From Flavobacterium terrisoli (GTDB lineage Bacteria; Bacteroidota; Bacteroidia; Flavobacteriales; Flavobacteriaceae): a stretch of 64,000 nt of DNA. Positions within the stretch are counted from its first letter, which is position 1, and every line of letters starts with the position of its first letter. Under the pieces are notes generated by a model that had not been told where the DNA came from, searched no databases, and worked only from the letters and a program-made list of their open reading frames with translations. Both the position numbers and the translations under genes were made by a program. Positions 24,039 to 64,000 of the stretch are shown here, piece by piece. The stretch spans positions 1-64,000 of the forward strand of contig NZ_JARGNA010000009.1 of the NCBI RefSeq assembly GCF_030167905.1, written 5' to 3'.

Positions 24039-24073
24039 CGAGACCCTAAAAAATATCCAAACCTAGGGTCTCG
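24039..24073. other. Inverted repeat between tRNA-Tyr and integrase
   Basis: A perfect 9-bp inverted repeat, CGAGACCCT (24039-24047) / AGGGTCTCG (24065-24073), with a 17-nt centre and no T tract. It may be a recombinase arm-binding or operator site. The rest of 23990-24198 shows no gene. Confidence 0.4.
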
Positions 24074-24198
24074 CTAAATCTTCTTAAGACTTGCAAACAC
24101 TGTACTTTCAGCCAGTTCAACAACCCGTTCAAAAGCTGTACATCTTGTTTGTTATTACTCAGGAATTTAAATTGAATAATAATTAAAAGGTCACCAAC

Positions 24199-29559: not shown

Positions 29560-29571
29560 GATATTGATTTT

Positions 29572-30216
29572 TTATTGATGAAATTCTACTGATGTTCTCT
29601 CACTATATAGTTTCCAAAATAAGTCTGCAAGAATTAGAGGTGAATGGGTTTCACTGTCAGACAAAATAAATCCTGCTACAGTAAGTAGTCCTACATAAAT
29701 ATCGTCTTGTTTCAGACGGTCATGTAATTGCAATGCCAGACTTCTGATTCCGGCCTTACCTATTGATAGAGAACCGTACTCAGCACTTGGTGTGATTGCC
29801 AAGCCACCACCAGTTAATAGGAAAGCACCTTTTTTCTGTTTTAGTCCTTCACGTGTAAGTTGTAACGAATGCAATGCATTGGCAACATTGATCGTAAATT
29901 CCTGCGTAAGGCTTTCAGAGGTTTCTTCTAAAATATCTTTTGCTTTTAAAACAGCCGCATTGTAGAAAACTGCATCAAACCCCGAATTGATTTCGGATAA
30001 TGATGTAATAGCACTAGTAAGCTGTTCTGCACTACCTGCGTCGGCTGTCGCGTAATTCACTTCAATACCTTGATGATTCAATTCCGATTTTATTTTTTCA
30101 AGATTTTCTTGATTTCTGCTGATGAGATTAATTGTAAATTCCTTTGAAGCAAATTTTTTAGCAACTCCAAGACTTAAACCTGGACCTGCTCCGATTATTA
30201 AAATTGACTTTTTCAT
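29572..30216 (-). CDS. Atypical SDR-family protein
   Basis: A 214-residue, short SDR. The nucleotide-binding motif is present as IGAGPGLSLGVAKKF (residues 7-21) and NAAVL takes the place of NNAG. The region where YxxxK is expected reads AEYGSLSIGKAG, with the tyrosine three residues too far from the lysine. Catalysis by the usual route is therefore doubtful. The 19-bp shared motif lies about 105 bp upstream. Confidence 0.78.
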   Translation of the reverse strand: MKKSILIIGAGPGLSLGVAKKFASKEFTINLISRNQENLEKIKSELNHQGIEVNYATADAGSAEQLTSAITSLSEINSGFDAVFYNAAVLKAKDILEETSESLTQEFTINVANALHSLQLTREGLKQKKGAFLLTGGGLAITPSAEYGSLSIGKAGIRSLALQLHDRLKQDDIYVGLLTVAGFILSDSETHSPLILADLFWKLYSERTSVEFHQ

Positions 30217-50301: not shown

Positions 50302-50534
50302 AATATTGGTTTGGTTAAATGAAACATTAGTTTTGTTTGCTTTGGCTTCCTAATTAGTTTGGCGACGAGGTAGGAAGTCTTTTTTGTTTGTTCTTGAAGT
50401 GTAGTTTAGTTGGTTATGTCATAGGCATACGCGTTTAGTAGTTAGTAACTATTGCGAGGCCAATTAATAATGAGCAGTGCTAAGAAAATAAAGATGAGAT
50501 AACCTAAATACAGGGTACAAAAAAGGCATGGAAC

Positions 50535-50618
50535 TCAGCTTACTGCACCGTAGGTACTGGTATACCCTGCAACAATAAGTGAGCCCACGCCAATAGACGT
50601 GAGCATCTTACTTATCAT
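50535..50618 (-). CDS. Possible 27-residue leader peptide of susC
   Basis: ATG ATA AGT AAG ATG opens a 28-codon frame that ends AGC TGA. The peptide is neutral and rich in Gly, Ser, Val and Tyr (begins MISKMLTSIGVGS, ends STYGAVS). It lies 234 nt upstream of susC in the same direction. The same DNA has arms GCTCACG/CGTGGGC and ATAAGT/ACTTAT that could fold as RNA. It could be a leader peptide, a precursor peptide or a chance ORF over a structured leader. The rest of 50302-50770 is AT-rich with no gene. Confidence 0.3.
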   Translation of the reverse strand: MISKMLTSIGVGSLIVAGYTSTYGAVS

Positions 50619-50800
50619 CTCGTTGCTAAAATTACCAGTTTTACGATGCGAGATTCAAAGCGAATGCTTCAAATATTTTTATATGAAGTATCGCAAATTT
50701 ATAATAATTCAGCGAATATAAGAAAATATATCAATTGTAGGTAACTTAACCTACATTATTTTTTACAAATGTGTTGAAATTGCTTCAACAAAATGAAGTA

Positions 50801-51049
50801 ATGGCTAAGAAACTAAGCAAGACGGAATTTCAAGTAGCATTTGGCAAACAAATTGAAAAACTAAGAACTCAACAAAATTTGAGCTATAGACAATTAGCGC
50901 AAAGATGTGATGTAGATTTCAGTAATATTAGCAAAATTGAAAAAGGTGAAATTAATATCCAGCTAGGAACAATATTGGAACTTGCAAAGGGTTTGAATGT
51001 TCATCCAAAAGAACTTTTTGATTTTAAATTTGATTTAGATAAGGAATAA
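50801..51049 (+). CDS. XRE family HTH regulator
   Basis: A small regulator of 82 residues with a single Cro/C1-type HTH: FGKQIEKLRTQQNLSYRQLA then QRCDVDFSNISKIEKGEINI and LGTILELAKGLNVHPKELFDF. The ATG at 50801 (MAKKLSKTEF) is preferred; 50771 would add ten residues. It is divergent from susC and precedes the first leader block of the cassette run. Its target may be the susC promoter or be unrelated. Confidence 0.88.
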   Translation: MAKKLSKTEFQVAFGKQIEKLRTQQNLSYRQLAQRCDVDFSNISKIEKGEINIQLGTILELAKGLNVHPKELFDFKFDLDKE

Positions 51050-51094
51050 TTATTTTCGGTTAATTTAATTTTCCACTTCAATACCACAATATAA

Positions 51095-51236
51095 AGATGC
51101 TAAGAGGCATCTTTTTTATTTACCTTTTTCTTTTATGAAATGATCAAATCTTCATACATTCGTAAAGGATGAAGATTATCCACCATCTTCTCAGTATAGA
51201 GCCATTGGTGTGATTTTGTCAGACCTATAAATTAGT
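51095..51236 (+). other. attI-like leader block 1
   Basis: This ~142-bp block is related to 57944-58080. Both begin with AGATGC, a 6-7 nt loop, then GCATCT and a T run, have the exact 17-mer TTCATACATTCGTAAAG, and end in GTCAGACCTATAARTAG/AAG directly before a G|TT junction. The first gene unit starts at 51237 (TTGGCATTAATTACC). The position, ahead of the first unit of a run of like sites, fits an integron attI, but the recombinase is not in view. The hairpin may also terminate the XRE transcript. Confidence 0.55.
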
Positions 51237-51255
51237 TGGCATTAATTACCCGGAC

Positions 51256-52116
51256 GTGACGAATAGATCTAGAAGACATCATTATATTCCAAAATTCTTA
51301 ACTAAAGGTTTTGGAGATGAAAAAGGACTTCTTTTCGTCTATAATAAAGTTAATGACGAAATTTTGAAGGTTCGTAAATCTCCTAAAGGTATATTTTTTG
51401 AATTTGAAAGAAATACAATTGAAGGGAAAGACCAAGAAAATGATTCTTCGATAGAAGATGTTTTTTTCAAAGAATTAGACGATAAGTCGGCTACAGTTGT
51501 TCAAAAATTCCAAGATGGAAAAATTAACGATGAATTGTTTTCGGAACATAACCTTGCTGATTTACAATTTTTCATAATCAATTTATTTTGGCGAATTCCC
51601 AAGACAGATTATGCCGCTAAAGATTTAGTAGAAAGAGCGGAAATAAAAATAAATGGGGAAAATATAAGTGATGAAATCAGAAATCATCCAAGCTTTGTCA
51701 AATTAAACAGAGTTCGATTTTTTAAAGAAACAATAGAACAATTTGACAGCCAGTTGAATAAACCGAAAAGGTATTACATTCAAGTTTCAGAATTTGAAGA
51801 AAATTTATTTTTGATTGGCGATTATCCGATCATTTATAGAAATTATATGAGCCAATTTACTGATTTAGTCCAATCTGAATTTAAAATGGCAATATCTTCT
51901 AAAAGAATAATTTCATTTGCTTTAGAACAAATTCCAAATTTTAAAAAAAGTTTATTTTTAAGATACAACGCAACAATTATTGATCAATCACAAACCTATG
52001 TAGCATCAGGTGATATTAAATTACTTCAGGCTTCAATTGAATATTATAAGGCGCTGAAAGAAAAAGGATGGAATTATGTTGCGAAAGAATTATTATTTCG
52101 TGAAAATACTAAGTAA
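51256..52116 (+). CDS. DUF4238 protein (cassette A)
   Basis: A 286-residue protein. The N-terminus SRRHHYIPKFLTKGF is the DUF4238 signature; FIINLFWRIPKTD and an YYIQVSEFEENLFLIGDYPI block are also typical. Function unknown; the family is common in mobile and defence-rich regions. The start is GTG at 51256, only 19 nt inside its unit, and the stop is 4 nt before the next structured site. The unit ends are nearly complementary: GTTGGCATTAATTAC (51236-51250) against GTAACTACTGCCAAC (52113-52127), 13 of 15. Confidence 0.82.
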   Translation: MTNRSRRHHYIPKFLTKGFGDEKGLLFVYNKVNDEILKVRKSPKGIFFEFERNTIEGKDQENDSSIEDVFFKELDDKSATVVQKFQDGKINDELFSEHNLADLQFFIINLFWRIPKTDYAAKDLVERAEIKINGENISDEIRNHPSFVKLNRVRFFKETIEQFDSQLNKPKRYYIQVSEFEENLFLIGDYPIIYRNYMSQFTDLVQSEFKMAISSKRIISFALEQIPNFKKSLFLRYNATIIDQSQTYVASGDIKLLQASIEYYKALKEKGWNYVAKELLFRENTK

Positions 52117-52120
52117 CTAC

Positions 52121-52251
52121 TGCCAACAGCCGTTTGGCGCAATGGTTGGTTTTGCATTTCTTAGCCGGAAATTGCTAAGTTGAAATTTTGCTTATCTTTA
52201 GAATAAATTTTAAAAAAGTCGCCATTGACGCCAAGTGGCAGAACGTTATCG
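52121..52251 (+). other. attC-like site A
   Basis: 131 bp. R'' TGCCAAC (52121-52127) and R' GTTATCG (52245-52251) flank arms TTGGCG-CAATGG (52134-52145) and CCATTGACGCCAA (52222-52234), which pair over 12 bp with one bulged base. A promoter-like TTG-N18-TATCTTTA (52172-52200) lies in the centre. Outer form and bulge fit integron attC folding; the core differs from GTTRRRY. Confidence 0.6.
52172..52200 (+). promoter_or_regulatory. Promoter-like sequence inside attC-like site A
   Basis: TTG (52172-52174), 18 nt, TATCTTTA (52193-52200), close to TTG-N17-23-TAnnTTTG. It points to the next unit's gene, which starts at 52279. Confidence 0.4.
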
Positions 52252-52278
52252 AAAATTATACATCAACAATTCATTATT

Positions 52279-53241
52279 ATGGCAACAGAAATAATAAGAT
52301 TTCACTTCTATTCAATTAAATTTACACCATACACAGAAGTTGCTAAAGACCACAGTAGCAATTCAATTCTACGAGGTTCTATCGATTATCTAATGAACGA
52401 ACTTGTTAATGGAAAAGGTCATTTAATTGATAGAAATAGAAATCGTCAAAATGAAGGTCCAAGAGAGCTATTTCTAACAAGCGCATCTTACATGGCAAGG
52501 GAAAAAAGAATTCGTTGCTCAATTGCGTTGCTTCGTTCAGGTCGAATTCCACAGATTAAACCAATAGACGAATTTAAATTAATTCCTATAACTAATTTAG
52601 GTTCAATCGCTGAAGAAACTCATTTTTATATCGATTATAATCGCCCTTATGGAGTCATATGTGTTGAGTACAATTACAATGGACCAAGAATATCTGATAT
52701 AGAGTATTATTTGAGGAATGTTGCTAGAAATGTTTTGAGATTGTCAAAAACGACTGATGTCAATTTGTATATGAGCAATACAATTGATAAAACACTTGCT
52801 AGTTTAAAAAATGTACTTAACCTAGACATTAAATTACAACCGAGAAAATTAGCGCAAATGGACACTGATTTGGTTGGAAAATATTTCACTGGCCTGAATT
52901 CAATTGGAAATTCTTTGAAGCCAAAATTTTTAAAATTAGAAGCCATGTTCCAAGCTCCTGGAAAAGGAGTTGAAAGTTCTGAATTGAATAAAGAAGCAAA
53001 TTCTATGGTTATGGAACTTATTCGAAAATTTAAAACACGACCATTTAACATAGACGTATTTGAAAATTTTGTTGTTAAGTACGAAGATAAAGTAGGAAAT
53101 CAAGAACTATTTGATTTATTAAAGGGTAAAGTTGAAATTATCAAAGAAGTTGAGATGCAAACGCTAACCAATAGAAGAAAATGGTATGAGTTAATTGAAG
53201 AAGATTTTAATGAGTTTATGATTAACTTTGGTAAACTATGA
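52279..53241 (+). CDS. Unknown soluble protein of a two-gene module (cassette B)
   Basis: A 320-residue protein without a recognised domain. It is soluble and basic, with ATEIIRFHFYSIKFTPYTEV at the start and a helical C-terminus ending MINFGKL. The upstream in-frame ATG at 52225 lies inside the attC-like site, so the ATG at 52279 is the better start, 33 nt into the unit. Its stop overlaps the start of a membrane-protein gene (ATGA), so the pair is translationally coupled. A soluble-plus-membrane pair of this type resembles several two-gene anti-phage modules in layout only. Confidence 0.75.
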   Translation: MATEIIRFHFYSIKFTPYTEVAKDHSSNSILRGSIDYLMNELVNGKGHLIDRNRNRQNEGPRELFLTSASYMAREKRIRCSIALLRSGRIPQIKPIDEFKLIPITNLGSIAEETHFYIDYNRPYGVICVEYNYNGPRISDIEYYLRNVARNVLRLSKTTDVNLYMSNTIDKTLASLKNVLNLDIKLQPRKLAQMDTDLVGKYFTGLNSIGNSLKPKFLKLEAMFQAPGKGVESSELNKEANSMVMELIRKFKTRPFNIDVFENFVVKYEDKVGNQELFDLLKGKVEIIKEVEMQTLTNRRKWYELIEEDFNEFMINFGKL

Positions 53242-53729
53242 TTTTAGATTATTACTTTAGAAAACCAATTTTCTGGGATTACACAATTGCAATAATTGTT
53301 GTATCAATTTTATTATACATAGATTATCTCGACAAACTTATATTTCCATCGATTGATAGGTCATTATCTATTACATCCGACTTATCAAACGTAGGGCTAA
53401 CATTAGCTGGTTTCATTTTAACGCTTTTAACTGTACTTATAACTTTTAAAAGTGCATCGAAAATTTCTAAAGAACAATATTCGGAAGACGACACAATATT
53501 TGATTTATTTTTTGTCTCTGATCTATATTTCATTACCGTTAGAATTTTAAAAAATTGTATCAAATCACTTATAGTTATTTCTGTAGTTGGCTACGCTGTA
53601 AAATTATCATTACCCCAAGAATGTTTTAAGATTACATTTTTCTATAACATATTTGCATTAATAGTTTTGGCTTTATCAGTTTGGAGATGTTTACTGATTT
53701 TATCAAAAATTTTGCATTTACAAAAATAA
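53238..53729 (+). CDS. Unknown four-span membrane protein (cassette B, second gene)
   Basis: A 163-residue membrane protein with hydrophobic spans near residues 14-27, 50-73, 103-122 and 135-155, with a conserved-looking SNVGLTLAGFILTLLTVLITF span. It has no motif I know. It overlaps the stop of the soluble protein gene by four bases. Its stop is 4 nt before the next attC-like site. The unit is the only one here carrying two genes. Confidence 0.75.
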   Translation: MILDYYFRKPIFWDYTIAIIVVSILLYIDYLDKLIFPSIDRSLSITSDLSNVGLTLAGFILTLLTVLITFKSASKISKEQYSEDDTIFDLFFVSDLYFITVRILKNCIKSLIVISVVGYAVKLSLPQECFKITFFYNIFALIVLALSVWRCLLILSKILHLQK

Positions 53730-53733
53730 CTGC

Positions 53734-53864
53734 CTATAACTTCATCTAGCGTCAATGGCTAGGTCAGAGCTATCAGGTAAGTAAGTTGATGTAATAAAAT
53801 TTTGGTTACATTTGTTTGGACCTTGCTAATAGTCGCCACGAACGCTAGATGAGGAACCTACTAG
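53734..53864 (+). other. attC-like site B
   Basis: 131 bp, as long as site A. R'' CTATAAC (53734-53740); the R' position reads CTACTAG (53858-53864), a changed core. CATCTAGCGT (53743-53752) pairs perfectly over 10 bp with ACGCTAGATG (53842-53851). The central part holds TTG-N18-TACATTTG. Confidence 0.6.
53786..53814 (+). promoter_or_regulatory. Promoter inside attC-like site B
   Basis: TTG (53786-53788), 18 nt, TACATTTG (53807-53814), a full TAnnTTTG match, 72 nt before the next gene's ATG at 53887. Confidence 0.55.
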
Positions 53865-53886
53865 GCAATTTTAAACTTATCTTACA

Positions 53887-54720
53887 ATGAAATTTTCCCC
53901 GAAATTAAAATCTTTATTCAAGACTATAGATGATTTAAATTTTACTGACTTTTTAAAATCAAATGATTTTCATAGGATGTGTGTTCGTCTAGAAATTGAG
54001 ACTTTTTGGAATTCTGTTTATACTGATGCAGAAAAAAATAGAACATTTTATTCTGTTGGAATGGATACAGAAGGATATGATTCTAATGAAGCTTTAAAAA
54101 TGTCGTTGAATTTAATTTTTGAAAAATATTATGATCAATTTTTTGACTTTATGATTGAATTTTTAAACGCTTTTACTAATTGGCAAAAGCAAGATTTAAA
54201 CATTGTAGAGTTAAAAGAAGATTTTAAAATATTAAATGCTCCTAAAGAAGTTATCATTCAGCTTGAAAGTTTAGGAAGGAAATATTCTGCACCAATACCT
54301 AAAACAATAATACCTGAATCTGTTTGGAATTCTGAAAAGGTTGAGGAGATTTTAAACAAGATGGATACTTCAATAAAAGAAGGCGATTATAATTTGACAC
54401 TGACATACGCATATACTTGTTTAGAAGGATTATTCAAATCATTTATAGCAGAAAAAATTCCTGAAAAAAAAGAAGTTGATAAGTTAAATTTACTTTCGAC
54501 TTTAGTTAGAGATTATATTAAAACTCAGTTAGTAAACGAAAATAGGCATTATCCAGAGCATGTATTAAACTTAATACCTACTGTAACAAATGCAATTTCA
54601 AATGCAAGAAATGAATTTAGTGATTCACACTTTGATAATAATTCGGAAAAATGGTTAGCAGAATTTTCCCGTGATTGTGTAAACTCAATCGCAAGATTGA
54701 TAATAAAGTTTATTAAATAA
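53887..54720 (+). CDS. Abortive-infection-like protein (cassette D)
   Basis: A 277-residue protein. The C-terminal third looks like the Abi C-terminal domain found in abortive-infection proteins: LTLTYAYTCLEGLFKSFI, then LLSTLVRDYI and the end segment VTNAISNARNEFSDSHFDNN, similar to the family's RNxxGD-HG motif. The N-terminus is unknown. It starts 28 nt into its unit and stops 7 nt before site D. The anti-phage role is inferred from the family, which is not certain here. Confidence 0.65.
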   Translation: MKFSPKLKSLFKTIDDLNFTDFLKSNDFHRMCVRLEIETFWNSVYTDAEKNRTFYSVGMDTEGYDSNEALKMSLNLIFEKYYDQFFDFMIEFLNAFTNWQKQDLNIVELKEDFKILNAPKEVIIQLESLGRKYSAPIPKTIIPESVWNSEKVEEILNKMDTSIKEGDYNLTLTYAYTCLEGLFKSFIAEKIPEKKEVDKLNLLSTLVRDYIKTQLVNENRHYPEHVLNLIPTVTNAISNARNEFSDSHFDNNSEKWLAEFSRDCVNSIARLIIKFIK

Positions 54721-54727
54721 AAACTGT

Positions 54728-54859
54728 CTGTAACAGCGGTTGTCAGCTATAGCTGGTTTTCGTGAATGCAACTTATTTTTTTACGTAAAAACTTTATCTT
54801 AGCAGAAAGTACGCAGCTCGCTTGATTCGCTACTGACTAATAGTTGCGAAACGTTATAA
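54728..54859 (+). other. attC-like site D
   Basis: 132 bp. R'' CTGTAAC (54728-54734), then AGCGGTTGTCAGC as in the other sites; GTCAG...CTGAC can pair across the site. R' is GTTATAA (54853-54859). The central part is A/T rich with a TATCTTAG element. Pairing is weaker than in sites A and H. Confidence 0.55.
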
Positions 54860-54899
54860 GCAAGCGCTCACGACTACTATTCTAATTAAAAAAGACTTT

Positions 54900-55484
54900 A
54901 TGACAACTACAGAAATAGCATTGCTTTCCACTTGTATAGGAGCAAGCGCAGGTATTTTTTCTCAAGTAATTGCGAATGTCCTAAGAGATAAAACAGATAA
55001 ACGAAAATTAATAATAGATTGCGTTTCAGAGGAAAGAAAGTTAGCGCATATATTATTTATTCATGTAAGGCGTTTAGAAAGTGCTTTAATCAATACAGAA
55101 TATTATTTTCAGTTATCCATAATTGAAATAAATGAGAAAGAAAGAGAAAAGCATTCTGAAAGATATCACAATGAACTTAAATATTGTGGCGACAGTTCTC
55201 GTGAGTATAATGCTTTACTTGGTGATTACTGCAAGAATATATACAAGTTATTAATGCTTACTAGTGACTCTAAGAAAATAGAAAATATTTTAGCAAAAAT
55301 TATGAGTCAACCTATTGATAACGCTATTGATATTTTTGAAAAATATGAAACATATCCGGAACTTTATCAAGTTTACCGTCAAACTATCGAAATGGGTGAA
55401 GTGAAATTAGAACCGTACAAGCAACTATTCAATGATATTTATAAAGAGATTCAACAAATTGTCGAAAATAGTGATGATAATTAA
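54900..55484 (+). CDS. Unknown protein with N-terminal anchor (cassette E)
   Basis: A 194-residue protein with an N-terminal hydrophobic segment (IALLSTCIGASAGIFSQVIA, residues 6-25) followed by a charged helical cytoplasmic region, with repeated lysine and glutamate. No family recognised. It starts 46 nt into its unit. The unit's 5' GTTATAAGC (54853-54861) is an exact complement of GCTTATAAC (55493-55501) at its 3' end, the closure expected for a circular cassette. Confidence 0.7.
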   Translation: MTTTEIALLSTCIGASAGIFSQVIANVLRDKTDKRKLIIDCVSEERKLAHILFIHVRRLESALINTEYYFQLSIIEINEKEREKHSERYHNELKYCGDSSREYNALLGDYCKNIYKLLMLTSDSKKIENILAKIMSQPIDNAIDIFEKYETYPELYQVYRQTIEMGEVKLEPYKQLFNDIYKEIQQIVENSDDN

Positions 55485-55494
55485 ACGTGCCAGC

Positions 55495-55653
55495 TTATAA
55501 CAGCGGTTTGTGGTAATTGCGAGGCTTGGGATTATCCCGAGTTTTTCCTTACTGACAGTCGCCTTCGGCTCTAGTCTCTGAAAACTCAAAAAGGAATTTT
55601 AATTTTGGAAGCAACAGTAATCAATCATCGCAAGTGTTGCAAGCCGCTAGGGA
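55495..55653 (+). other. attC-like site E (3' end altered)
   Basis: R'' TTATAAC (55495-55501) and AGCGGTTTG (55502-55510) pairing with CAAGCCGCT (55640-55648) over 9 bp with one T.G pair. An inner hairpin CTTGGGA-TTA-TCCCGAG follows. No GTT core follows the left arm; the sequence runs into the reverse-oriented RloB gene, whose TAG stop (55647-55649) lies in the arm. Confidence 0.55.
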
Positions 55654-56312
55654 TAATTTTTGGCACTTGCAATTATAGACTGTACTAATTTATAAACCCT
55701 TGTACCTAAATATTCTGGCCATCTTGTCTGGGGATTTATATCTAATTTTATAGCATTATCTATAGCGGTTTGAACTAATGGAATAAAACGATCAGCATCA
55801 TATTTAGCTTCATTAAAACCTCCCAATAAGTTTGAAAGCATTTTTTTTGAATATGTTTTGTTACGATTTACTTTAGCATTCCTAAATAAATCAGTTGAAA
55901 CTTTAGCTGAAACTAATGTACAATCAACTAAGTGAAGTATTAACCACAATTCAAAAGCAGGATTACTAACTGCTAGATAGTAACCTCTTTTCTGATTACA
56001 AATTTGAGCTACAGAACGCATCATTGATACATCCCAAGATTGATAATCTCTATCAATAACCATCCATAATTCATCTTCTTGATCGAGATTATATTCATCG
56101 CAAAATGCATTCAATTGATTCAAAACCTCCTCAGGACTCGAATTATCATCAAGCTTTTCAATTACTTCAACATGAACTTTTGTAGAATCAAAACCATTAG
56201 CAAGTGCCTCAAAATAAATTCTTTCCGTTTTTCTACCTTCGGTTGCTATTACGATTAACTTTGCGCTTCTTTTATTTTCCGGTCTCTTAAAATCTCTTTT
56301 AATTCTTCCCAT
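55647..56312 (-). CDS. RloB-like protein (AbiL second component)
   Basis: A 221-residue RloB family protein, as shown by KLIVIATEGRKTERIYFEALAN, WMVIDRDYQSWDV (acidic TOPRIM-like site) and FELWLILHLVD near residue 115. It starts with the ATG that overlaps the stop of the RloA gene (TAATG at 56310-56314); an ATG two codons upstream at 56318 is possible. RloA-RloB type pairs are described as the AbiL anti-phage system. The stop codon falls in the arm of attC-like site E. Confidence 0.85.
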   Translation of the reverse strand: MGRIKRDFKRPENKRSAKLIVIATEGRKTERIYFEALANGFDSTKVHVEVIEKLDDNSSPEEVLNQLNAFCDEYNLDQEDELWMVIDRDYQSWDVSMMRSVAQICNQKRGYYLAVSNPAFELWLILHLVDCTLVSAKVSTDLFRNAKVNRNKTYSKKMLSNLLGGFNEAKYDADRFIPLVQTAIDNAIKLDINPQTRWPEYLGTRVYKLVQSIIASAKNYP

Positions 56313-57655
56313 TACCACGATAAATCTTTAGGGTTAGATAGAAAAGGAATAGCCCCGTATCGTCCATTTAGATATCCTCTTTTAATATCATTATCAGCTC
56401 TTGGAGTGAATTCTAAAAGAGAATAAAATTTTGAACTACCTAACTTATTTTTCTCAACAAACCAAATTTCATCCTTTCTAAACAATTCCAAATCCAATAA
56501 ATTTGATTCATGAGTAGTAACTATTAATTGACTATTACTATTATTAAATTGGTTAACAAAATATTCTAAAATACCTTTTGTTAAAATTGGATGCATACTA
56601 CGGTCAATTTCATCTATTAAATAAACAGAATCGTTTTTGATAATATCAACAAGCATAGGAATAAAATCAATAAGCCTTCTTGTTCCGTCAGATTCTTCAT
56701 CCATTTCAAATAAAACTCCTTCCCCATTTTTATTCAAGTGAGTAGTTACAAGTTTAAATGCTTTTAATTTCCCTTTTTTATCTTTTTCAAAGGCATAACT
56801 TACTCTATTATCCTCAGAACCTATAACTGTTCTCTTTCCTTCTTCTAATTCAGAAATAATTTCATTAATTGCCTCTTTAGGCAATTCTTTTATATCTCTT
56901 TCATAATCAACTTCTTTAGTAATAAGCTCCGAAACACCTGTATTAAAATAATTTAAAAACTTAGACATTGATTTAGATAAGTCTTTGTTATTATCTAAAT
57001 GGAACTCTAATCCTCTAAATCTAGTTTTAGGGAAAAACACTTTTAGTTTATTATCAAACCAATCATACACTTCATTAACTTCATTAATAAAATCAAGATT
57101 TCTTTCAATACATTCCTTTAAGAAAGTTTTGTTATCTGGTGTGCCCCTTGCCACAAAATGTGCAAAGAGTTCATCATCTTTACTTTTAAACTTTACGCTT
57201 TCAAATTCGATACTAGTAACCTTTTTATTTGTTTTTCTTTCAAATATTTTTTTCTCGCTTTTTTTATTGATTAAATACAACCATTCTTCAGCAATTACTT
57301 TTTTATTAAATATTACACCATAGGCATAATTATTATTGCCAATTTTAATTTCAATTTCAATTTTAGAATTTGTTTTTGACTTTTCACCTAATTTAAAAAT
57401 TTCTACTGGAATATCTTTGTTAGAAACTAAACTTCTAGTAGCCATAGATTTAATTAAAGCAACAACTTTAATTAGATTTGATTTTCCAGATGCATTCGCT
57501 CCATACAAAATACCAGTCTTAAGAACTGGTATATCATCTCTTTTTTCTGAACGAACAATATGATCTCCTTTAACACTTCCCTTGCCTGGAATTAAGCTAA
57601 ATTCAATTTCAGAATCAAACGAAAGTATGTTAGATGCAAACACTCTAATAAGCAT
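56312..57655 (-). CDS. RloA-like AAA ATPase (AbiL first component)
   Basis: A 447-residue ABC-type/OLD-like ATPase. Walker A GANASGKSNL is near residue 54, the ABC-like region EMDEESDGTRRLIDFIPML near residue 310, and Walker B DSVYLIDEIDRSMHP near residue 340, then QLIVTTHESNLLD with the switch histidine. It is coupled by one base to RloB. This pair is oriented against all other genes in the run, so it came in by another event or by inversion. Confidence 0.87.
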   Translation of the reverse strand: MLIRVFASNILSFDSEIEFSLIPGKGSVKGDHIVRSEKRDDIPVLKTGILYGANASGKSNLIKVVALIKSMATRSLVSNKDIPVEIFKLGEKSKTNSKIEIEIKIGNNNYAYGVIFNKKVIAEEWLYLINKKSEKKIFERKTNKKVTSIEFESVKFKSKDDELFAHFVARGTPDNKTFLKECIERNLDFINEVNEVYDWFDNKLKVFFPKTRFRGLEFHLDNNKDLSKSMSKFLNYFNTGVSELITKEVDYERDIKELPKEAINEIISELEEGKRTVIGSEDNRVSYAFEKDKKGKLKAFKLVTTHLNKNGEGVLFEMDEESDGTRRLIDFIPMLVDIIKNDSVYLIDEIDRSMHPILTKGILEYFVNQFNNSNSQLIVTTHESNLLDLELFRKDEIWFVEKNKLGSSKFYSLLEFTPRADNDIKRGYLNGRYGAIPFLSNPKDLSW

Positions 57656-57714
57656 AATAATAAATTTTATGGCGCTAAATTACGAAAAAACCGTAACATC
57701 TGCAAAAATACAAA

Positions 57715-57943
57715 AAAACTAACCCTCACAGCAGTTTATTTCATCCTTTCGCTAGCGCTCGTGTACAAAGCCTCACTATCGGGATTAGCATTATCTTATC
57801 TATCCGGATTGTGTTGAAAACAATACCCATTGGCTATACTGGTCATGTGCTTGCATCGTGTCCCTTTTTTAGTAGTTCCTTTGCATTGAACCGTTTGAGA
57901 CTGGCCGCGACCCCGATGGCACGGATTTGCAATCTAGGCAATT
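57715..57943. other. Gene-free stretch between RloA and second leader block
   Basis: No reading frame or paired site I can support. It has small inverted pieces (CGCTAGCGCTCG near 57760) and a CCCGATGGCACGGATTTGCAAT string that looks like an old repeat remnant. The change from this to the leader block at 57944 is abrupt. Confidence 0.35.
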
Positions 57944-58080
57944 AGATGCTTAAAGGCATCTTTTATACTTCTTCTTCCATAAAACGTCAAATATTCATAC
58001 ATTCGTAAAGAGTGAAAATCATCAGATCAATCTGTTTAAAAAGGATGGATAAGGATGATTCTGTCAGACCTATAAGTAAG
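57944..58080 (+). other. attI-like leader block 2
   Basis: The second copy, ~137 bp, of the block at 51095-51236. Shared: AGATGCTTAAAGGCATCTTT hairpin, TTCATACATTCGTAAAG (17 of 17), and GTCAGACCTATAAGTAAG at the right end, directly before TTACCAGTAATATTT, where the first unit of the second run begins. The two copies differ in their middle part. Confidence 0.55.
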
Positions 58081-58095
58081 TTACCAGTAATATTT

Positions 58096-58848
58096 ATGAC
58101 CAAAGTGCTAAAAAACACCAAATCAGTTTCTGAAAGTTATGACCTTTTAGAACAGCTTATTGGAAAACACTTGGAATCACATACTGACAAACAGAAAACT
58201 CTTGAAATTTGTCATACTGGAAAGTTTTTATTATTCTTTGAAAACTTAAACATCAGCCAAGTTTCTGAAAAACCTGATTTCATTTTATTCGACGGAAAAG
58301 AAAAAATAGGTCTTGAACATCAAATAATTGTTGAATCAAAATCAAAAGAAAGAGAAGGCTTTTTCGAAAACATTTTTGCACAAGCTGAAACAGAATTACA
58401 ACAAGATACAGAATTACCAAACTTCCTCGCTGATTGTTATATTCAGTATTATGTAACATATAAATTAAATGAGAAGGAGAAATTAATTGAAATTGTAAAA
58501 ACCGTCATTAAGGAATATGTTCTCAACGATAACTTTATTGAAAATCCAATCATTGAGAGCATTTCACTTCAACCGCATTCACAAAAAAACATAAATGCGA
58601 ATATGGGCGCATGGTGGCAAAAAAACATACCAAAAGAAACTCTTGAAAACGCAATAAACAAAAAGAATGCTAAAGTTTCTAGTTATAGAGAAAATGGAAT
58701 ACAGAAGCAATGGCTTTTGTTGGTTATTGGAAGTAGCGGAGATAGTTCATTCGAAATGGATAAAGACTTGAAACTGGAAATTGAAACAAAGTTTGATAAG
58801 GTTTTCGTTTTAGAAGACTTAAGAAATACGTTATATGAATTGAAATAA
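58096..58848 (+). CDS. Unknown nuclease-like protein (cassette H)
   Basis: A 250-residue protein. PDFILFDGKEKIGLEHQIIV near residue 58 has the shape of a PD-(D/E)XK strand pair, but the lysine is not clear. GAWWQKNIPKETLENAINKK and KQWLLLVIGSSGDSS follow. I do not recognise a family. The upstream in-frame ATG at 58012 lies in the leader block; 58096 is right inside the unit (15 nt). The unit's ends match: 58080-58095 is the complement of 58847-58862 in 15 of 16 positions. Confidence 0.68.
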   Translation: MTKVLKNTKSVSESYDLLEQLIGKHLESHTDKQKTLEICHTGKFLLFFENLNISQVSEKPDFILFDGKEKIGLEHQIIVESKSKEREGFFENIFAQAETELQQDTELPNFLADCYIQYYVTYKLNEKEKLIEIVKTVIKEYVLNDNFIENPIIESISLQPHSQKNINANMGAWWQKNIPKETLENAINKKNAKVSSYRENGIQKQWLLLVIGSSGDSSFEMDKDLKLEIETKFDKVFVLEDLRNTLYELK

Positions 58849-58855
58849 ATACTAC

Positions 58856-58985
58856 TGGTAACAGCGGTTTGCAGCAATGGCTAGTTTAGATTTTCCTAGC
58901 CGGAAAATCTAAAAGAGAAAATTCCATATCTTTACAATTAAGCATTAAAATCGCCGCCACGGCTGCAAGCCGAGGAACGTTGTAG
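58856..58985 (+). other. attC-like site H
   Basis: 130 bp. R'' TGGTAAC (58856-58862), R' GTTGTAG (58979-58985). CGGTTTGCAGC (58865-58875) pairs with GCTGCAAGCCG (58962-58972) over 11 bp with one T.G. An inner hairpin GATTTTCC-TAGC-GGAAAATC lies in the middle. A TATCTTTA element is at 58927-58934. Confidence 0.62.
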
Positions 58986-59012
58986 GCAGTTTTAACCCAA
59001 ACCGCATAAATT

Positions 59013-59750
59013 ATGGATGAAACTTTACGAATGTATTGGGAATTATTCAATGAATCATGTTCAAACGAATTGATGATTCACAAAAGCCATAACCCCCTAA
59101 GAAATTTTGAAGAAGAATTTATAGAGGGTCCAATACTTGAATTGGGGTGTGGGCAAAGTAGTTTTTTAGTAGAATATTCTAAAACAGGTAAAGAAATATT
59201 TGCAATTGACAATGAAGATTTTCAATTAAGTCTTTTAAAAAAAAGAATTGAATCTTATGCTGGAAAACAAGCTGGAAAATTACATCTGTTAAATATAACC
59301 ATCCCGAAAAAAGAAATTCCAAAAGAAGTATTCTCTTTGGTTATTATGTCCGATTTTTTGCATTTTTTTTCAATAGAAGATTGTGGCAAAATCATCAATC
59401 AAATAGCTTCCAGAACTCAAAAAGGTTCATTAATTTATATTAAGGCGCATTCAATATCTCATTCTTATTTTAAGTCTACAGAGCCTGGGTTACATCAATA
59501 TTATAAACATTTTTTTTCAGAAACCGATTTACCTAAACTCTTTGACAAAAAATACTTTGAAAGAATCATGTTTTCCGACACCGTTCAAAGTGTCAGATCA
59601 AAGTTTTCAAGAGAAATGCAGATTAAATGGCACGAAAGAGTTTTAGATAAATATGAAGTATTTGATCCCGAAGATAGAGAAGAAGAGCTTAAGTCGACTA
59701 AAGAAGAATCAATTGTTGGTTATTTAGAATGTGTTTATAGACGAAAATAA
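59013..59750 (+). CDS. Class I SAM-dependent methyltransferase (cassette I)
   Basis: A 245-residue enzyme with the SAM-binding GPILELGCGQSSFLVEYS (motif I), IFAIDNED (acidic end of strand 2) and FSLVIMSDFLHFFS (motif IV region). The substrate is unknown; the second half is aromatic and helical. It starts 33 nt into its unit and stops 7 nt before site I. GTTGTAGGCAGTTTT (58979-58993) is an exact 15/15 complement of AAAACTGCCTACAAC (59750-59764). Confidence 0.82.
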   Translation: MDETLRMYWELFNESCSNELMIHKSHNPLRNFEEEFIEGPILELGCGQSSFLVEYSKTGKEIFAIDNEDFQLSLLKKRIESYAGKQAGKLHLLNITIPKKEIPKEVFSLVIMSDFLHFFSIEDCGKIINQIASRTQKGSLIYIKAHSISHSYFKSTEPGLHQYYKHFFSETDLPKLFDKKYFERIMFSDTVQSVRSKFSREMQIKWHERVLDKYEVFDPEDREEELKSTKEESIVGYLECVYRRK

Positions 59751-59757
59751 AAACTGC

Positions 59758-59893
59758 CTACAACAACGGTTTGTAGGCATTAAACGTCTTGGTCTGTACA
59801 TCGAATTTTCTCCGAAAATTCAAAGCCAAGTTTTGTACTTGGAATCATTAGTAATAAATTATCGTAGCTGTTACAAGCCGCAAGAAGTTGTGG
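59758..59893 (+). other. attC-like site I
   Basis: 136 bp. R'' CTACAAC (59758-59764), R' GTTGTGG (59887-59893). CGGTTTGTA (59767-59775) pairs with TACAAGCCG (59872-59880). Hairpins GAATTTTC-TCC-GAAAATTC and CCAAGT-TTTGT-ACTTGG lie in the centre. Bases 59802-59859 match 60804-60861 in 55 of 58. Confidence 0.62.
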
Positions 59894-59936
59894 CAATTAA
59901 TACAAACTTTGCTGTGAAATTTAAAATATATAGAAA

Positions 59937-60749
59937 ATGACTTGGGAAGAATACGAAGAAGTAACAAAGTACATATATGAAACACTTGGAAAAGAAAAAG
60001 GTGTAACTATAGAATGCTTTGGAAAAGATTGCAAAGTTCTAGGAAAATCAGATGTTAAACATCAAATCGATGTATTAACAAATTTTTCCGATGGATTGCA
60101 TAATTACAAAACCGCAATAGAATGTAAATATTGGAATAAAAATATAGACAAAGATATTGTTATGAAAGTTGCGGAGATTATTGAAGATTCTGCGATAAAT
60201 AAAGGGGTAATTGTTTCAAAAAAAGGATTTACACCAGATGCAATTTCTTATGCAAAATATAAAAATATAGGTTTAGTTGAATTGCGTGAATTTGAAGAAG
60301 GAGATTGGAAAGGAAGAATAAAAACCATAAAGTTTAATATCGATATGCTTTTACCACAAATAAATAGTTTAGAATTCTTTATAGATAAAGAAACTGAAAC
60401 AGATTTGAGACCGGGAGAAATGCTAATTGAAAATTTAAAACACAAAAATAAAGATGGTGAAATCATAGGTTTAAGGTTTTATGTAGAAAATTTTAGTTCT
60501 GAATTAACAAAACAAAAAGAAGATGAAATCTTTGAAAAAATATACAAATTTGAAGGTGAAAATTTCATTATTAATGGCTTAACAAACTCTGAAACTTCTA
60601 TTGGCGGACTGAAATTAACTGGTGTTTTAAAAATTGCAAAAGAAGGATTTCAAATAAATGGAGAAGATCATGTCTGGTTAATTATGAAAGCATATTTTGA
60701 AGATAAAACATATACAATATCGAAAGACAAGGAAATTAGAGAGCGTTAA
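59937..60749 (+). CDS. Mrr-like restriction endonuclease (cassette J)
   Basis: A 270-residue protein. The N-terminal 130 residues have a PD-(D/E)XK endonuclease fold of the Mrr/RecB-like kind: HQIDVLTNF (D) and TAIECKYWNK (ExK), with the last strand GVIVSKKGFTPDAISYA. The C-terminus is of unknown fold. Mrr-like enzymes cut modified or foreign DNA. Next to a methyltransferase cassette it could look like a restriction-modification pair, but each is in its own unit. It starts 49 nt into its unit. Confidence 0.8.
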   Translation: MTWEEYEEVTKYIYETLGKEKGVTIECFGKDCKVLGKSDVKHQIDVLTNFSDGLHNYKTAIECKYWNKNIDKDIVMKVAEIIEDSAINKGVIVSKKGFTPDAISYAKYKNIGLVELREFEEGDWKGRIKTIKFNIDMLLPQINSLEFFIDKETETDLRPGEMLIENLKHKNKDGEIIGLRFYVENFSSELTKQKEDEIFEKIYKFEGENFIINGLTNSETSIGGLKLTGVLKIAKEGFQINGEDHVWLIMKAYFEDKTYTISKDKEIRER

Positions 60750-60762
60750 AATTAAACTGCCA

Positions 60763-60880
60763 ATTATAGCAATTTGTAACAATTGGTTGGTTTGGGTTTA
60801 TACCGAATTTTCTACGAAAATTCAAAGCCAAGTTTTGTGCTTGGAATCATAAGTAATAAATCTACATAGCTAAGTTGATA
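60763..60880 (+). other. attC-like site J (partly decayed)
   Basis: About 118 bp. The R'' place reads ATTATAG and R' GTTGATA (60874-60880). The centre shares 55 of 58 bases with site I, including GAATTTTC/GAAAATTC and CCAAGT/ACTTGG-like arms, but the outer pairing is weak. Confidence 0.45.
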
Positions 60881-60909
60881 ATTAACAACATACAATTAAA
60901 TAGACTTAT

Positions 60910-61671
60910 ATGAAAAGAACTAAAATAGGGATATGTAAACTTTGCAAACAAGAAAAAGAATTAACATACGAACACATTCCTCCACAGTCTGCATTTAATA
61001 GAAATACCAAATTCTACAGATTAGAAACAACAGAATACTTTAAAAATGCAAAAGAATATGTTGAAGGAAACTTAAAACCGAAATCACGTAAAGAACAGGG
61101 TGGTGTTGGAGATTATTGCCTTTGTGGAAACTGTAATGGTTATTTAGGATCAAAATATGTGCGTGAGTATAAAAGATTAGCTGAAATTTCATATTCAATT
61201 ATTACTCAATATCCAGATGCAAAATGTTATGAATTTGATATTTCTGAAATAAATCTTTTAAAATTTATAAAACAAATCATTGCAATTTTTATTTGCAGTA
61301 ATAACGTTAGCTTCACTAAAAACTATCAGGGTTTAATTGAATTTGTCTTAAATGAAAATTCAAATTATTTACTAGAACGGTATAAACTTTATATGTACTT
61401 AAATCATGAAGGGAATCTAAGAAGCGGGAATTTATCATACACTAATTTACATGGTGCTATATGCGAATTCACATATAAACCTCTCGGATTTGTACTTAAT
61501 ATTGACAATCCAAATCAAATAATGGAATTATCAAACATTACAGATTTTAAAAAGTTTAACCCTTTTGCAAAATACAGTGAAATTATGATTAGGTTAAATA
61601 AATACCCCACAATTTACCCCTTCCCAATGGACTTTAGAAGTCAAGAGAAAATCAATAATTCACTTGCGTAA
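60910..61671 (+). CDS. HNH-type endonuclease-like protein (cassette K)
   Basis: A 253-residue protein. The start, GICKLCKQEKELTYEHIPPQ, gives a CxxC and then an EHIPP motif of the HNH fold; a second CGNCNGYLGSKYV pair of cysteines near residue 75 completes a zinc site. The C-terminal half is aromatic and unknown. It starts 35 nt into its unit. HNH proteins of this size occur in restriction and phage-defence clusters. Function is inferred. Confidence 0.75.
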   Translation: MKRTKIGICKLCKQEKELTYEHIPPQSAFNRNTKFYRLETTEYFKNAKEYVEGNLKPKSRKEQGGVGDYCLCGNCNGYLGSKYVREYKRLAEISYSIITQYPDAKCYEFDISEINLLKFIKQIIAIFICSNNVSFTKNYQGLIEFVLNENSNYLLERYKLYMYLNHEGNLRSGNLSYTNLHGAICEFTYKPLGFVLNIDNPNQIMELSNITDFKKFNPFAKYSEIMIRLNKYPTIYPFPMDFRSQEKINNSLA

Positions 61672-61679
61672 TTTTTTGA

Positions 61680-61758
61680 CTTAACTACATCCCGAATCGC
61701 TTTTATATATTAGTAATAGCAAAAGTGTATGTTTATCATACGCACTAATTAGTTAGCT
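61680..61758 (+). other. Possible site K
   Basis: TTAAC (61681-61685) and GTTAGCT (61752-61758), the latter a match to the standard GTTRRRY core, bracket about 65 nt. TAATTAGTTAG resembles the right end of leader block 1 (TAAATTAGTTGG). Arms are not clear. From here to 61934 there is no firm gene. Confidence 0.25.
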
Positions 61759-61772
61759 ATAAGTTTTAAAAC

Positions 61773-61883
61773 ATGACTGCAAAAAAGACATCTTTTTTTG
61801 CCCCACACCAACCCAAAAAGGGCCGAACTCATAGTAATCTAGGTATCATGGACGCTATAAAAACTCTTGCAATTTGTAAATAA
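61773..61883 (+). CDS. Possible 36-residue ORF
   Basis: An ATG-TAA frame (begins MTAKKTSFFAPHQ, ends AIKTLAICK) in the gap before the DUF262 gene. It is basic and shows no known motif. It may be a gene remnant or a chance frame. Confidence 0.2.
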   Translation: MTAKKTSFFAPHQPKKGRTHSNLGIMDAIKTLAICK

Positions 61884-61934
61884 ATAATCGAATATTACTA
61901 CATTTACAATTATTCTTTACCTGAAATTAATACA

Positions 61935-64000
61935 ATGGAAATAAAAGAAATATTTGAACATAAAATAAAGATAGAGCCAAAGGTGATGTCAATAGAGAGC
62001 CTTTTCAATAATGAAGAAAGGGTTGCGAAAACAGATTATCAACCGTTTTATCAGAGGAACTATGTATGGGATGATGAAAAGGCGACTTATTTTATTGAGA
62101 GCATTTTATTAGGGACTGAAATTCCTCCACTTATATATTTTAGGAACGGTACCAATATAGAGGTCATTGATGGTAGGCAAAGATATCAAACTATTCTTCG
62201 ATTTGTTTCTGATGATCTAAGGTTGAAAAAAAACGGTCTTCAAAAATTAGACAATGTTGGCATTGCCAACAAATTTTTCAAAGATTTAGATCGCCAGTTA
62301 CAGGATTTGTTTTGGGATACTAAGTTGCGTATAATTGAATTTAGCTTTCACAGTCAGGAGAATATAGACTCTGAAATGGAAGACGTTGTGAAGCAGGAAA
62401 TTTTTAAAAGATATAATTCCGGAATCACGCCACTTAAGCCTACCGAAATAGATAATGCCGTGTATTTTGAGGATGACTTGAATTCATATTTAAAAAGAAA
62501 ACTGCTTAATGATAAAATTTTATTTAGAAACGTCACAAACATTTTGCATTTCGATAAGCCAAATAATGAAATCATTTTAAAGAAAATTAGACAATTGCTT
62601 GTTCAGCATAAGATTCCCATTAAATATTATGCTGTAAAAAAAGACACAATAATTTCAAAATTTTACGAAGTTCTTTTTTCTGATATAAATGAGGAAGAAA
62701 TTGAGGCAATTTTTTCAAGTTTTATCGAAAAAATTAATCTCTTACTTAAGGTTAAAGAAAGGTTTCCTGACAAGGGAATATCATATAACAGATTAATATC
62801 TGAATGTTTATTTTGGTCTTTTTCAATACTTGAAGCAGAAGACTTTTCCTTGGAGGTTATAACACCATCTGTGATTGAAGAATTGGGAGTTTATATACTA
62901 GGTAATATTGAATTTTTTGAGATCACTCGTAGTTCTTTTGCTAAAGAGTTATACAAACGATATGAAATTACCTCAACTTTCTTTAGAAATAAGTTTGGTA
63001 TAGATTTTAATATTTATTTACAATACAATCAAGATTTTAAACAAAGAAACCAAGATCTTTCTGCGGATGATGAAGAGCGGGTTAGTTTTGATGAGCTGAG
63101 AATTAATAAGCCAGAACCATCATCAATTGCTATAACTGATATCTGTCGACAAATGGAAAGGCATCGATTTCTAATTAGGCCGCCATATCAACGGAATGAA
63201 GTAATAAATAAAAAGAAATCATCATTAATTATCGAGAGTATTCTATTAGGAATAAAATTGCCCCCAATTTTCGTTTTTAAAAGGGAAGATGGAATTTCAG
63301 AAGTGTTAGATGGTCAGCAACGACTTTTAAGTATATTAGGTTTTATAGAGAAACCATATTTAGATGAAAAAAATCAAATAAAGCGATCATCAAAAAACGG
63401 CTTTGCTTTAAACTTAAAGAGCAGTATTTTAAAGGATTTGCAAGGAAAAAAGTTCACTCAATTATCTCCGGAACAAAGGGAAACAATTACCAACTTTGAT
63501 TTGTGGTTCATTGAAATTAATTATGTTAATAATAAAAATTTTGAGCCTATTGATCTTTTCATTCGCCTTAATAATAAACCTTATCCGATAAAAGAAGATA
63601 CTTTCGAAATGTGGAACTCGTATGTCTCACGAGATATAATTAGTACTATAAAATCTATTTATACAAATCATAGTGGATGGTTTTATATTCGAAAAAACAA
63701 TTCTCGAATGGAAAATGAAAATATATACACAGCATTAGCGTATTTTCAATATACTTGGAACTTATCCGAGAAATCCAATTCCTTTACTCCAAAAGATGTT
63801 GATATCTATAAAGTACTGAATAAAATAAATTTACGAGTTAAGTCGAAAAATGAGATTACAAAAGTTCTAGAGGATAGTTCACTTAAACTTAAATTCATTG
63901 ATGCAGCTAATGATTTGGAATTTAATTTTATTAGAAAACTTAAACTTTTATTGTCTGACACGAATGATTATTCACTCACCAGCTTGAATAAAAATCTTGA
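61935..64000 (+). CDS. Tandem DUF262 (GmrSD-like) protein, cut by window end
   Basis: An open frame of at least 688 codons running off the window. It has two DUF262/ParB-like nuclease domains: YQPFYQRNYVWDDEKATYFI with VIDGRQRYQTILRF (residues 36-90), and again RPPYQRNEVINKKKSSLIIE with EVLDGQQRLLSILGF (near residues 410-475). The DGxQR motif is the NTPase/nickase site of GmrS. Two such domains in one chain suggest an internal dimer. GmrSD-type proteins restrict modified DNA. The unseen C-terminus may carry the partner domain. Confidence 0.85.
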   Translation, partial: MEIKEIFEHKIKIEPKVMSIESLFNNEERVAKTDYQPFYQRNYVWDDEKATYFIESILLGTEIPPLIYFRNGTNIEVIDGRQRYQTILRFVSDDLRLKKNGLQKLDNVGIANKFFKDLDRQLQDLFWDTKLRIIEFSFHSQENIDSEMEDVVKQEIFKRYNSGITPLKPTEIDNAVYFEDDLNSYLKRKLLNDKILFRNVTNILHFDKPNNEIILKKIRQLLVQHKIPIKYYAVKKDTIISKFYEVLFSDINEEEIEAIFSSFIEKINLLLKVKERFPDKGISYNRLISECLFWSFSILEAEDFSLEVITPSVIEELGVYILGNIEFFEITRSSFAKELYKRYEITSTFFRNKFGIDFNIYLQYNQDFKQRNQDLSADDEERVSFDELRINKPEPSSIAITDICRQMERHRFLIRPPYQRNEVINKKKSSLIIESILLGIKLPPIFVFKREDGISEVLDGQQRLLSILGFIEKPYLDEKNQIKRSSKNGFALNLKSSILKDLQGKKFTQLSPEQRETITNFDLWFIEINYVNNKNFEPIDLFIRLNNKPYPIKEDTFEMWNSYVSRDIISTIKSIYTNHSGWFYIRKNNSRMENENIYTALAYFQYTWNLSEKSNSFTPKDVDIYKVLNKINLRVKSKNEITKVLEDSSLKLKFIDAANDLEFNFIRKLKLLLSDTNDYSLTSLNKNL

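Follow-up and report, generated by a model that had tools for sequence, protein, structure and literature searches.

Our analysis covered the window, a 64,000-nucleotide stretch of the Flavobacterium terrisoli genome (contig NZ_JARGNA010000009.1, positions 1 to 64,000), which very probably contains two integrase-less arrays of an integron-like gene cassette platform that is widespread in Bacteroidota and apparently unrecognized. Eight compact units with nine open reading frames (ORFs), all on the plus strand, lie between 51235 and ~61758. These units and their structured sites had been described in the original prediction, made from the letters of the window, and they are present as claimed. 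The prediction had treated them as a single array, but the interval consists of two, at 51235-55664 and 58080-~61758, which are split by a minus-strand AbiLii/AbiLi-like gene pair (55647-57655) and a ~400-bp non-cassette stretch. Its proposal of a related but different cassette system, represented in the window by a CALIN (cassettes without an integrase), gained support from sites in relatives and from a recombinase at the head of an array elsewhere in the same genome. Judged by its anatomy, the platform appears to work like an integron. It falls outside the definition of the IntI-type family, because we tested for the IntI-specific domain and the RYYYAAC/GTTRRRY core and found neither. Below, C denotes contigs of this genome, G genomes, L loci, S1 to S6 the window sites, and R1 our covariance model.

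A plain motif scan was too loose to find the sites (58 genome-wide matches against 66 for a reversed-pattern control), and we used a paired-arm scanner and a covariance model instead. R1 was built from 70 sites in this genome and in named loci; one of them (58844-58997) comes from the window and 69 from elsewhere. The site between cassettes folds as a hairpin with an R box, a short asymmetric spacer (one base on the left, 5-6 on the right), an L box, an inner stem, and a variable loop. Across the 70 sites, the 20 pair positions of the L box and inner stem were paired in 85.9% of cases, compared with 56.1% after shuffling, and contained 354 double-change cells, compared with 97.4 in shuffled data and 61-89 in slid controls. 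The pairing of the L box is partly built in because the seed scanner demanded 9 of 11 ungapped matches there, yet the inner stem (columns 33-40), which the scanner did not require, covaries as well. Watson-Crick covariation, with almost no G-T, appeared again in 150 sites outside the training set that lie next to divergent recombinases, in an alignment which was fitted to R1 and thus favors the structure of the model. With regard to the two extrahelical bases that integron attC sites have on the L'' side, 6 and 1 of these 150 sites show inserted bases on that arm and 51 show them on the other, as aligned by a model seeded with ungapped matches. An inner A.C mismatch is present in 148 of the 150 independent sites and a C.A mismatch in the R box in 136. 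We had initially counted three universal mismatches and reduced them to two, as the L-box T.G (50 of 70 in the first set, A2) is a Watson-Crick pair in 147 of the 150.

The core of these sites is not RYYYAAC/GTTRRRY: in the 70 sites, the base just before AAC is restricted to T or C, and the three preceding it are unconstrained. The original description of sites starting YNAAC and ending GTTRTRR was accurate for AAC and GTT, but the next bases are specific to each cassette, and this is the key feature of the system. As in attC sites, there are paired R and L boxes; the L box and inner stem covary, and the R box pairs in the circular form.

Most cassettes begin with 14-15 nt that complement their own end. 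In the first set, 49 of 68 cassettes had a start that agreed with their own end at all four bases following GTT (mean 3.24), compared with 10 of 136 (mean 1.71) for the two sides of one physical site and a shuffled mean of 1.65 (standard deviation 0.12). Among the 49, matching continues at a high rate through position 15 (41/49), apart from 0 at position 11, and falls to 14/49 at position 16. The independent set gave 94 of 113 perfect cassettes (mean 3.59; shuffled 1.63, standard deviation 0.11) against 10 of 113 within one physical site, and position 11 matched in 0 of 113. Dropped before these counts were 20 of 128 scanner sites, neighbor pairs more than 2.6 kb apart, and 6 of the 150 sites with no AAC/GTT where expected. 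Only 10/136 and 10/113 comparisons within one physical site were perfect, and we rejected the alternative of R'' pairing with the R' of that site. As read from these sequences, own-end complementarity with a near-constant mismatch at position 11 is the footprint of recombination through circular cassettes: closing a circle at GTT would bring the two ends of the cassette together as the R arms of a single site.

The genome has nine Phage_integrase matches, and one of them, on C12, is the best match to the integron integrase profile. It is a XerA-like recombinase of 347 aa, directly followed on the same strand by an array of the same kind of site. R1 recognizes 12 sites there (E < 0.001), and a thirteenth scores weakly at 19.5 bits (E 0.18). 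At E ≤ 0.1, R1 finds 32 matches in the genome: 12 on C12, six in the window, eight at C16:114646-119411, three on C14, two on C10, and one on C11.

The association of recombinase and sites holds across the family. From the single-contig genomes in the family sample we took every homolog of the recombinase (P0001) that reached E ≤ 1e-50, which gave 23 loci. Sites were found in 21 of them, and all 197 R1 sites (E ≤ 0.1) are downstream of the recombinase and on its strand; this was read from the table for all 197, and the script check of aligned sites gave 150/150. The chosen regions hold 333 kb downstream and 70 kb upstream, so strand is a fairer measure of linkage than position. In 65 named loci from Flavobacterium, Kaistella, Epilithonimonas, Cytophagales, Chitinophaga, Sphingobacteriales, and others, 132 of 137 R1 matches (E ≤ 0.5, training sites included) lie downstream and on the same strand. 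The five exceptions are one at L128:9250 (upstream) and four on the opposite strand, in L136 (two), L111, and L080. Of these 65 loci, 34 have a downstream site. In 25 the contig stops less than 1 kb past the recombinase; among the 40 that offer 1 kb or more, 32 have a site. Sites in divergent arrangement were seen on the minus strand at L136 (2023-2774) and L202 (2552-11050). Large arrays include 19 sites behind one recombinase in L174 and 29 sites in 20 kb of L199, where the array head lies beyond the stretch covered. Among 149 family genomes, 96 have both sites and recombinase, 33 sites only, two recombinase only, and 18 neither.

Own-end matches of 14 or 15 of 15 bases, with position 11 scored as A, located the start of the first cassette in 39 of 53 loci. 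The column count, which omitted 10 divergent loci of these 39, showed TATA at -9 to -6 and A at -1 without exception (29/29). The attI consensus is TATAWRHDA immediately before GTT, and this GTT lies 93-125 nt after the last recombinase codon in 28 loci and 228 nt after it in one, placing an attI beside the recombinase gene as in integrons. In 36 of 56 loci, the motif TAnnTTTG, the Bacteroidota promoter box and here a putative cassette promoter (Pc), follows the last codon at a distance of 3-20 nt, compared with 3% in shuffles; nine loci (L112, L127, and L133-L139) were left out of this count. A 111-bp stretch at the head of the C16 array at 114 kb copies the C12 attI with 99% identity and takes in the final codons of the recombinase gene, which suggests that attI itself was duplicated or relocated. 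That array (G000:C16:114100-119411, L041) has eight sites and no recombinase. In L042, a short-period tandem repeat follows an attC-like half site (~6817-7100).

The sites are common. R1 finds them (E ≤ 0.001) in 129 of 149 family genomes, or 128 of 148 genera, and they lie between unrelated genes in most related genomes, which is what the original prediction had asked of a new covariance model. At E ≤ 1e-4, they occur in 122 of 247 phylum genomes and 70 of 121 genera, counts which may include some canonical or third-type arrays because R1 also matches near canonical IntI genes and in L235. Around 15 canonical IntI genes, R1 (E ≤ 1) gives 10 matches: six are weak (16-26 bits), and the other four, which score 40-66 bits, all come from L235. 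These four (L235 1825-4520) lie upstream of a canonical IntI and share its strand, and this IntI does not head them. No relative of the new recombinase was found in L252, which covers the 14 kb before, and L235 is possibly a third arrangement. Canonical IntI exceeds its cut-off in 70 of the 247 phylum genomes, none of them of the window's genus or family; of the 75 that match IntI, G234 is the sole member of the family, at 141 bits. A recombinase with 42% identity (L134) is found in a metagenome-assembled genome labeled Candidatus Alkanophagales archaeon, with contamination possible. We found no description of such a system in the open literature searched, a scope that mostly excludes subscription papers and preprints. 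A survey with the standard tool reports complete integrons as very rare in Bacteroidetes, with only In0 before and then one in Salinibacter ruber, besides Chlorobi and Ignavibacteriae (PMC9024848).

We next consider what kind of protein the recombinase is. Its catalytic region is nearest to XerA and IntI structures, the best sequence and fold neighbors being 5hxy (E 2.8e-41) and 4a8e. The extra N-terminal ~60 residues are predicted to form a b-b-a-b-b-a domain (mean predicted local distance difference test score, pLDDT, 79.6), which is present in 21 of 22 divergent homologs tested; the miss, L181, is cut by the chosen start codon, and L192 was left out of the count. Fold searches with this domain gave nothing significant and no chain at Z ≥ 5. 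The HARP-type fold 4o66 ranked third and fifth with weak E values of 0.86 and 1.1, and Pfam searches of 29 members gave HARP in one (E 0.038) and DUF5710 in 12 (best 1.4e-4), so that the HARP fold, a structure-specific DNA-binding type, is no more than a weak lead. A tree of 73 rows unites the 56 family homologs (98/83), of which some on short contigs, as well as L187 and L192, have no detected site. Their neighbors are the 13 IntI sequences (100/100), and both groups are separated from four Xer rows (100/94). Because the Xer rows are few and long-branched, the sisterhood of the recombinase clade and IntI is provisional.

These properties bear on the explanation that the window belongs to an ordinary canonical integron or CALIN whose IntI and attC sites merely score under tool thresholds, which we consider unlikely. 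The layout of recombinase, attI, attC-like sites, and promoter-like motif is indeed the canonical one, and the clade is sister to IntI in our small tree. NF040815 (NCBIfam), whose title reads site-specific tyrosine recombinase/integron integrase, scores the C12 protein at 226.7 bits, above its cut-off of 220. In canonical integrons, the array is mostly on the strand opposite to the integrase, and the arrays at L136 and L202 are likewise opposite to their recombinase relatives. However, TIGR02249 matches the C12 recombinase in two pieces (2-178 and 239-315), skipping profile positions 179-238, and its score of 207.8 bits is below the curated cut-off of 265. Aligned to VchIntIA (2a3v), the protein has 20 residues where VchIntIA has 184-245, so most of the IntI-specific additional domain is lacking; in VchIntIA, this region holds K209, Y210, W219, P232, H240, and H241, which contact extrahelical bases (PMC3053210). 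The original prediction had suggested a genome search for an IntI with the additional alpha-helix domain. An array-head recombinase does exist, but most of that region is absent from it, which makes the system more, not less, unusual. The misfit of R'' with RYYYAAC, the N-terminal domain of the divergent homologs, and the lack of any IntI above the cut-off in genomes of the window's genus or family also speak against a canonical integron, as does the tree, where canonical IntIs form a clade of their own and the new recombinases at present occupy a sister position. In a classification of tyrosine recombinases, the IntI insertion is described as essential for integron function, yet not fully conserved in the integron-like group defined there (PMC8138268).

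Shared cassettes offer a view of past movement. Window cassette 5 recurs in G496, where the match spans GTTACCAG to CTGGTAACAGC; upstream, only the attI-like stretch matches in part. A metallophosphoesterase cassette is common to a Chryseobacterium plasmid and G121 (84%), with the similarity ending at GTT and AACA, and the plasmid and the other genome show matching changes at both cassette ends (GTTACCAG/CTGGTAAC versus GTTGCCAG/CTGGCAAC). The plasmid encodes a recombinase 68.6% identical to ours, followed by four R1 sites on its strand. In this locus (L210), as we read its sequence, two group II introns (22722-24572 and 29354-29633) lie antisense against the same L'' arm. By the same reading, an R''-like remnant is present on the other side of one intron, and an IS110-family gene interrupts another site. 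The window DNA matches 40 of 199 genomes of the genus, and the places listed outside its own genome are single cassettes, cassette parts, or bare sites. Relatives of the methyltransferase cassette lie outside arrays in G466 and G420 and have decayed ends in G495, so gene sharing alone does not demonstrate cassette movement. An all-versus-all comparison of arrays gave 17 rows, six within one genome (G125) and four covering recombinase genes; L186/L210 was the one cassette row examined.

The arrays could be fossils, formerly mobile and now inert, with the recombinase serving another function such as dimer resolution. The window sites are partly degenerate, and our evidence is sequence alone, both of which would fit. 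Still, own-end complementarity is intact and private in most cassettes, the cassette of the plasmid and the other genome changed at both ends together, the attI copy on C16 is near-identical, and two other Xer-size recombinases are present in the genome, on C9. We therefore regard this explanation as decidedly unlikely. It is very unlikely that the units transpose singly, with 15-bp terminal inverted repeats, and stand in tandem by chance: most do have a private terminal inverted repeat, but these repeats differ among units that share one enzyme, covarying hairpins lie between the units, and same-strand arrays reach the lengths seen in L174 and L199. Structured RNAs, terminators, or REP-like repeats between genes would account for hairpins after stop codons, but they are almost certainly not the explanation, as Rfam gave nothing but group II introns at gathering score in the stretches scanned (window 50000-64000, where all matches were sub-threshold, and L210, L199, and L200), almost no G-U is found among the covarying pairs, cassette ends are privately complementary, and the unequal strands and recombinase linkage are the opposite of what repeats would lead one to expect.

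We thus return to the integron-like platform. Its parts, their linkage, the own-end complementarity, the covariation, the conserved mismatches, and the spread can all be read in the DNA compared here, and the following mechanism is proposed from them. On C12, a tyrosine recombinase gene is followed by a promoter-like motif just past its stop codon, an attI of ~100 nt ending in TATA....A before GTT, and cassettes on the same strand. Each cassette begins with GTT and ~7 private bases and ends with their complement. The recombinase would most likely bind one folded strand of an attC-like site and exchange strands next to GTT, freeing a circular cassette whose own start and end would pair; the circle would then be inserted at attI or at another site. 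A single-stranded substrate, this exact crossover, activity in the present day, and action in trans on the window arrays are presumed in this scheme, and the N-terminal domain may stand in for the missing IntI domain. We lean toward a broader interpretation in which this is a second integron lineage across Bacteroidota, sister to IntI, that recognizes folded attC sites without the IntI insertion, perhaps with its N-terminal domain reading the conserved mismatches.

Several observations weigh against these interpretations. No site was found at 2 of the 23 homologs (L187 and L192) and at 8 of the 40 named loci with at least 1 kb downstream, and 33 of the 149 family genomes have sites but no homolog at E ≤ 1e-50. 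The sites at the relatives L136 and L202 (G001; frame of only 284 aa) are on the opposite strand. R1 matches near canonical IntI genes, the four stronger ones in L235 included, and its seeding from ungapped L-box matches biases it against bulged sites. Some cassette genes are also found outside arrays, and position 11 is not always a mismatch, as it matches in window cassette 6. Finally, S2, S4, and the last two sites of the window are degenerate, and the window arrays may therefore be relics.

R1 finds six sites in the window, all on the plus strand, and none at E ≤ 1 on the opposite strand of the 64 kb. It does not recognize the degenerate putative sites at ~60751-60890 and ~61671-61758. A tblastn search with the recombinase gave no significant match in 48001-51300 or 55401-58100. 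Counting sites of the new type, the window qualifies as a CALIN, with at least two of them and no integrase nearby. A ~150-bp leader stands before each array, and the two leaders are related, with 71% identity (from ~51095 versus 57944-58091). We searched the 2.5 kb before each site for the match to its own end (best of 14), and cassettes 1 to 6 scored 13, 11, 10 (misplaced), 12, 14, and 14; random 15-mers scored at least 11 in 29/200, at least 12 in 9/200, and 14 in 0/200. Cassettes 1, 4, 5, and 6 stand out from chance, cassette 2 scores near chance but is placed on the GTT of the site, and cassette 3 fails. Four of 10 proteins tested had no Pfam family, and the cargo with matches (Pfam, PADLOC) comprises DUF4238, an AbiJ-like protein, a methyltransferase, and an Mrr-type restriction endonuclease.

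The first array is headed by an attI-like right half at 51211..51234 (+; leader from ~51095) with TGATTTTGTCAGACCTATAAATTA before GTT, comparable to the L131 attI (CTGATTTTGTCAGACCTATAAGCTA before GTT) and to the consensus. Cassette 1 (51235..52127) carries the DUF4238 ORF (51256-52116) and is followed by S1 (52109..52263; 94.8 bits, E 6e-17), which was outside the training set. Cassette 2 (52245..53740), with overlapping ORFs 52225-53241 and 53238-53729 that have no Pfam match, leads to S2 (53722..53876; 60.0 bits), where CTA replaces the expected GTT. In cassette 3 (53858..54734), ORF 53887-54720 is AbiJ-like (PADLOC 1.7e-11; Pfam HEPN under cut-off), and S3 (54716..54871; 79.7 bits) comes next. 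Cassette 4 (54853..55501; ORF 54900-55484, no family match) ends at S4 (55483..55664; 27.7 bits), which has lost its right half, the GTT side, at the junction with the minus-strand pair. This pair, which consists of an RloB-like gene (55647-56318) and an RloA-like AAA ATPase gene (56312-57655), abuts S4, and an insertion or deletion joined it to the array.

The second array, also plus-strand throughout, starts at an attI-like right half (58056..58079; leader from ~57944) with TGATTCTGTCAGACCTATAAGTAA before GTT. Cassette 5 (58080..58862; ORF 58096-58848), also found in G496 (78%) and G504 (70%), is followed by S5 (58844..58997; 97.3 bits), the window site in the training set. Cassette 6 (58979..59764) carries the methyltransferase ORF (59013-59750), followed by S6 (59746..59904; 45.3 bits). 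Cassette 7 (59886..60890), with the Mrr-type endonuclease ORF (59937-60749), and cassette 8 (60891..61758) each end in a degenerate site without an R1 match; ORF 60910-61671 of the latter had no match in a PADLOC scan, the only scan applied to it. The window part is thus a pair of attI-headed, integrase-less, partly decayed arrays of the system. Away from them, at 24865-25359 (+), lies a different tyrosine recombinase (415-aa frame) that weakly resembles the IntI profile.

If our interpretation is true, integrons can function without the IntI domain and are much more frequent than surveys indicate; roughly half of the phylum genomes sampled, and most of those from the family, have such sites, set against the rarity reported. 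If the arrays work, the statement that the IntI insertion is essential would be wrong in general, current surveys would have missed a large pool of cassette genes that includes defense genes and is present on a plasmid, and the origin of integrons could be tested with a living sister system.

Compared with known systems, the C12 recombinase has its best sequence and fold neighbors in archaeal XerA and NF040815 proteins, but unlike them it sits at cassette arrays, has the extra N-terminal domain, and groups with IntI in the tree. The window arrays resemble a CALIN in having sites and no integrase nearby, and they differ in that each begins with an attI-like half and in the new kind of site. The closest likeness is to canonical integrons, which share the array-head tyrosine recombinase, the attI, the promoter-like motif directed into the array, compact cassettes whose start is complementary to their own end, folded recombination sites with GTT...AAC cores, and defense-type genes as in the window. 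They also share group II introns at the sites, antisense to the cassettes; this is the habit described for group IIC introns at attC sites (PMC7923331). The new system differs from canonical integrons in that its recombinase lacks most of the IntI insertion, has the N-terminal domain, and is encoded mostly on the cassette strand. Its end repeats span 14-15 nt and nearly always mismatch at position 11, and its sites have a core other than RYYYAAC/GTTRRRY, a spacer of 1 nt against 5-6 nt, and a constant A.C mismatch in the inner stem.

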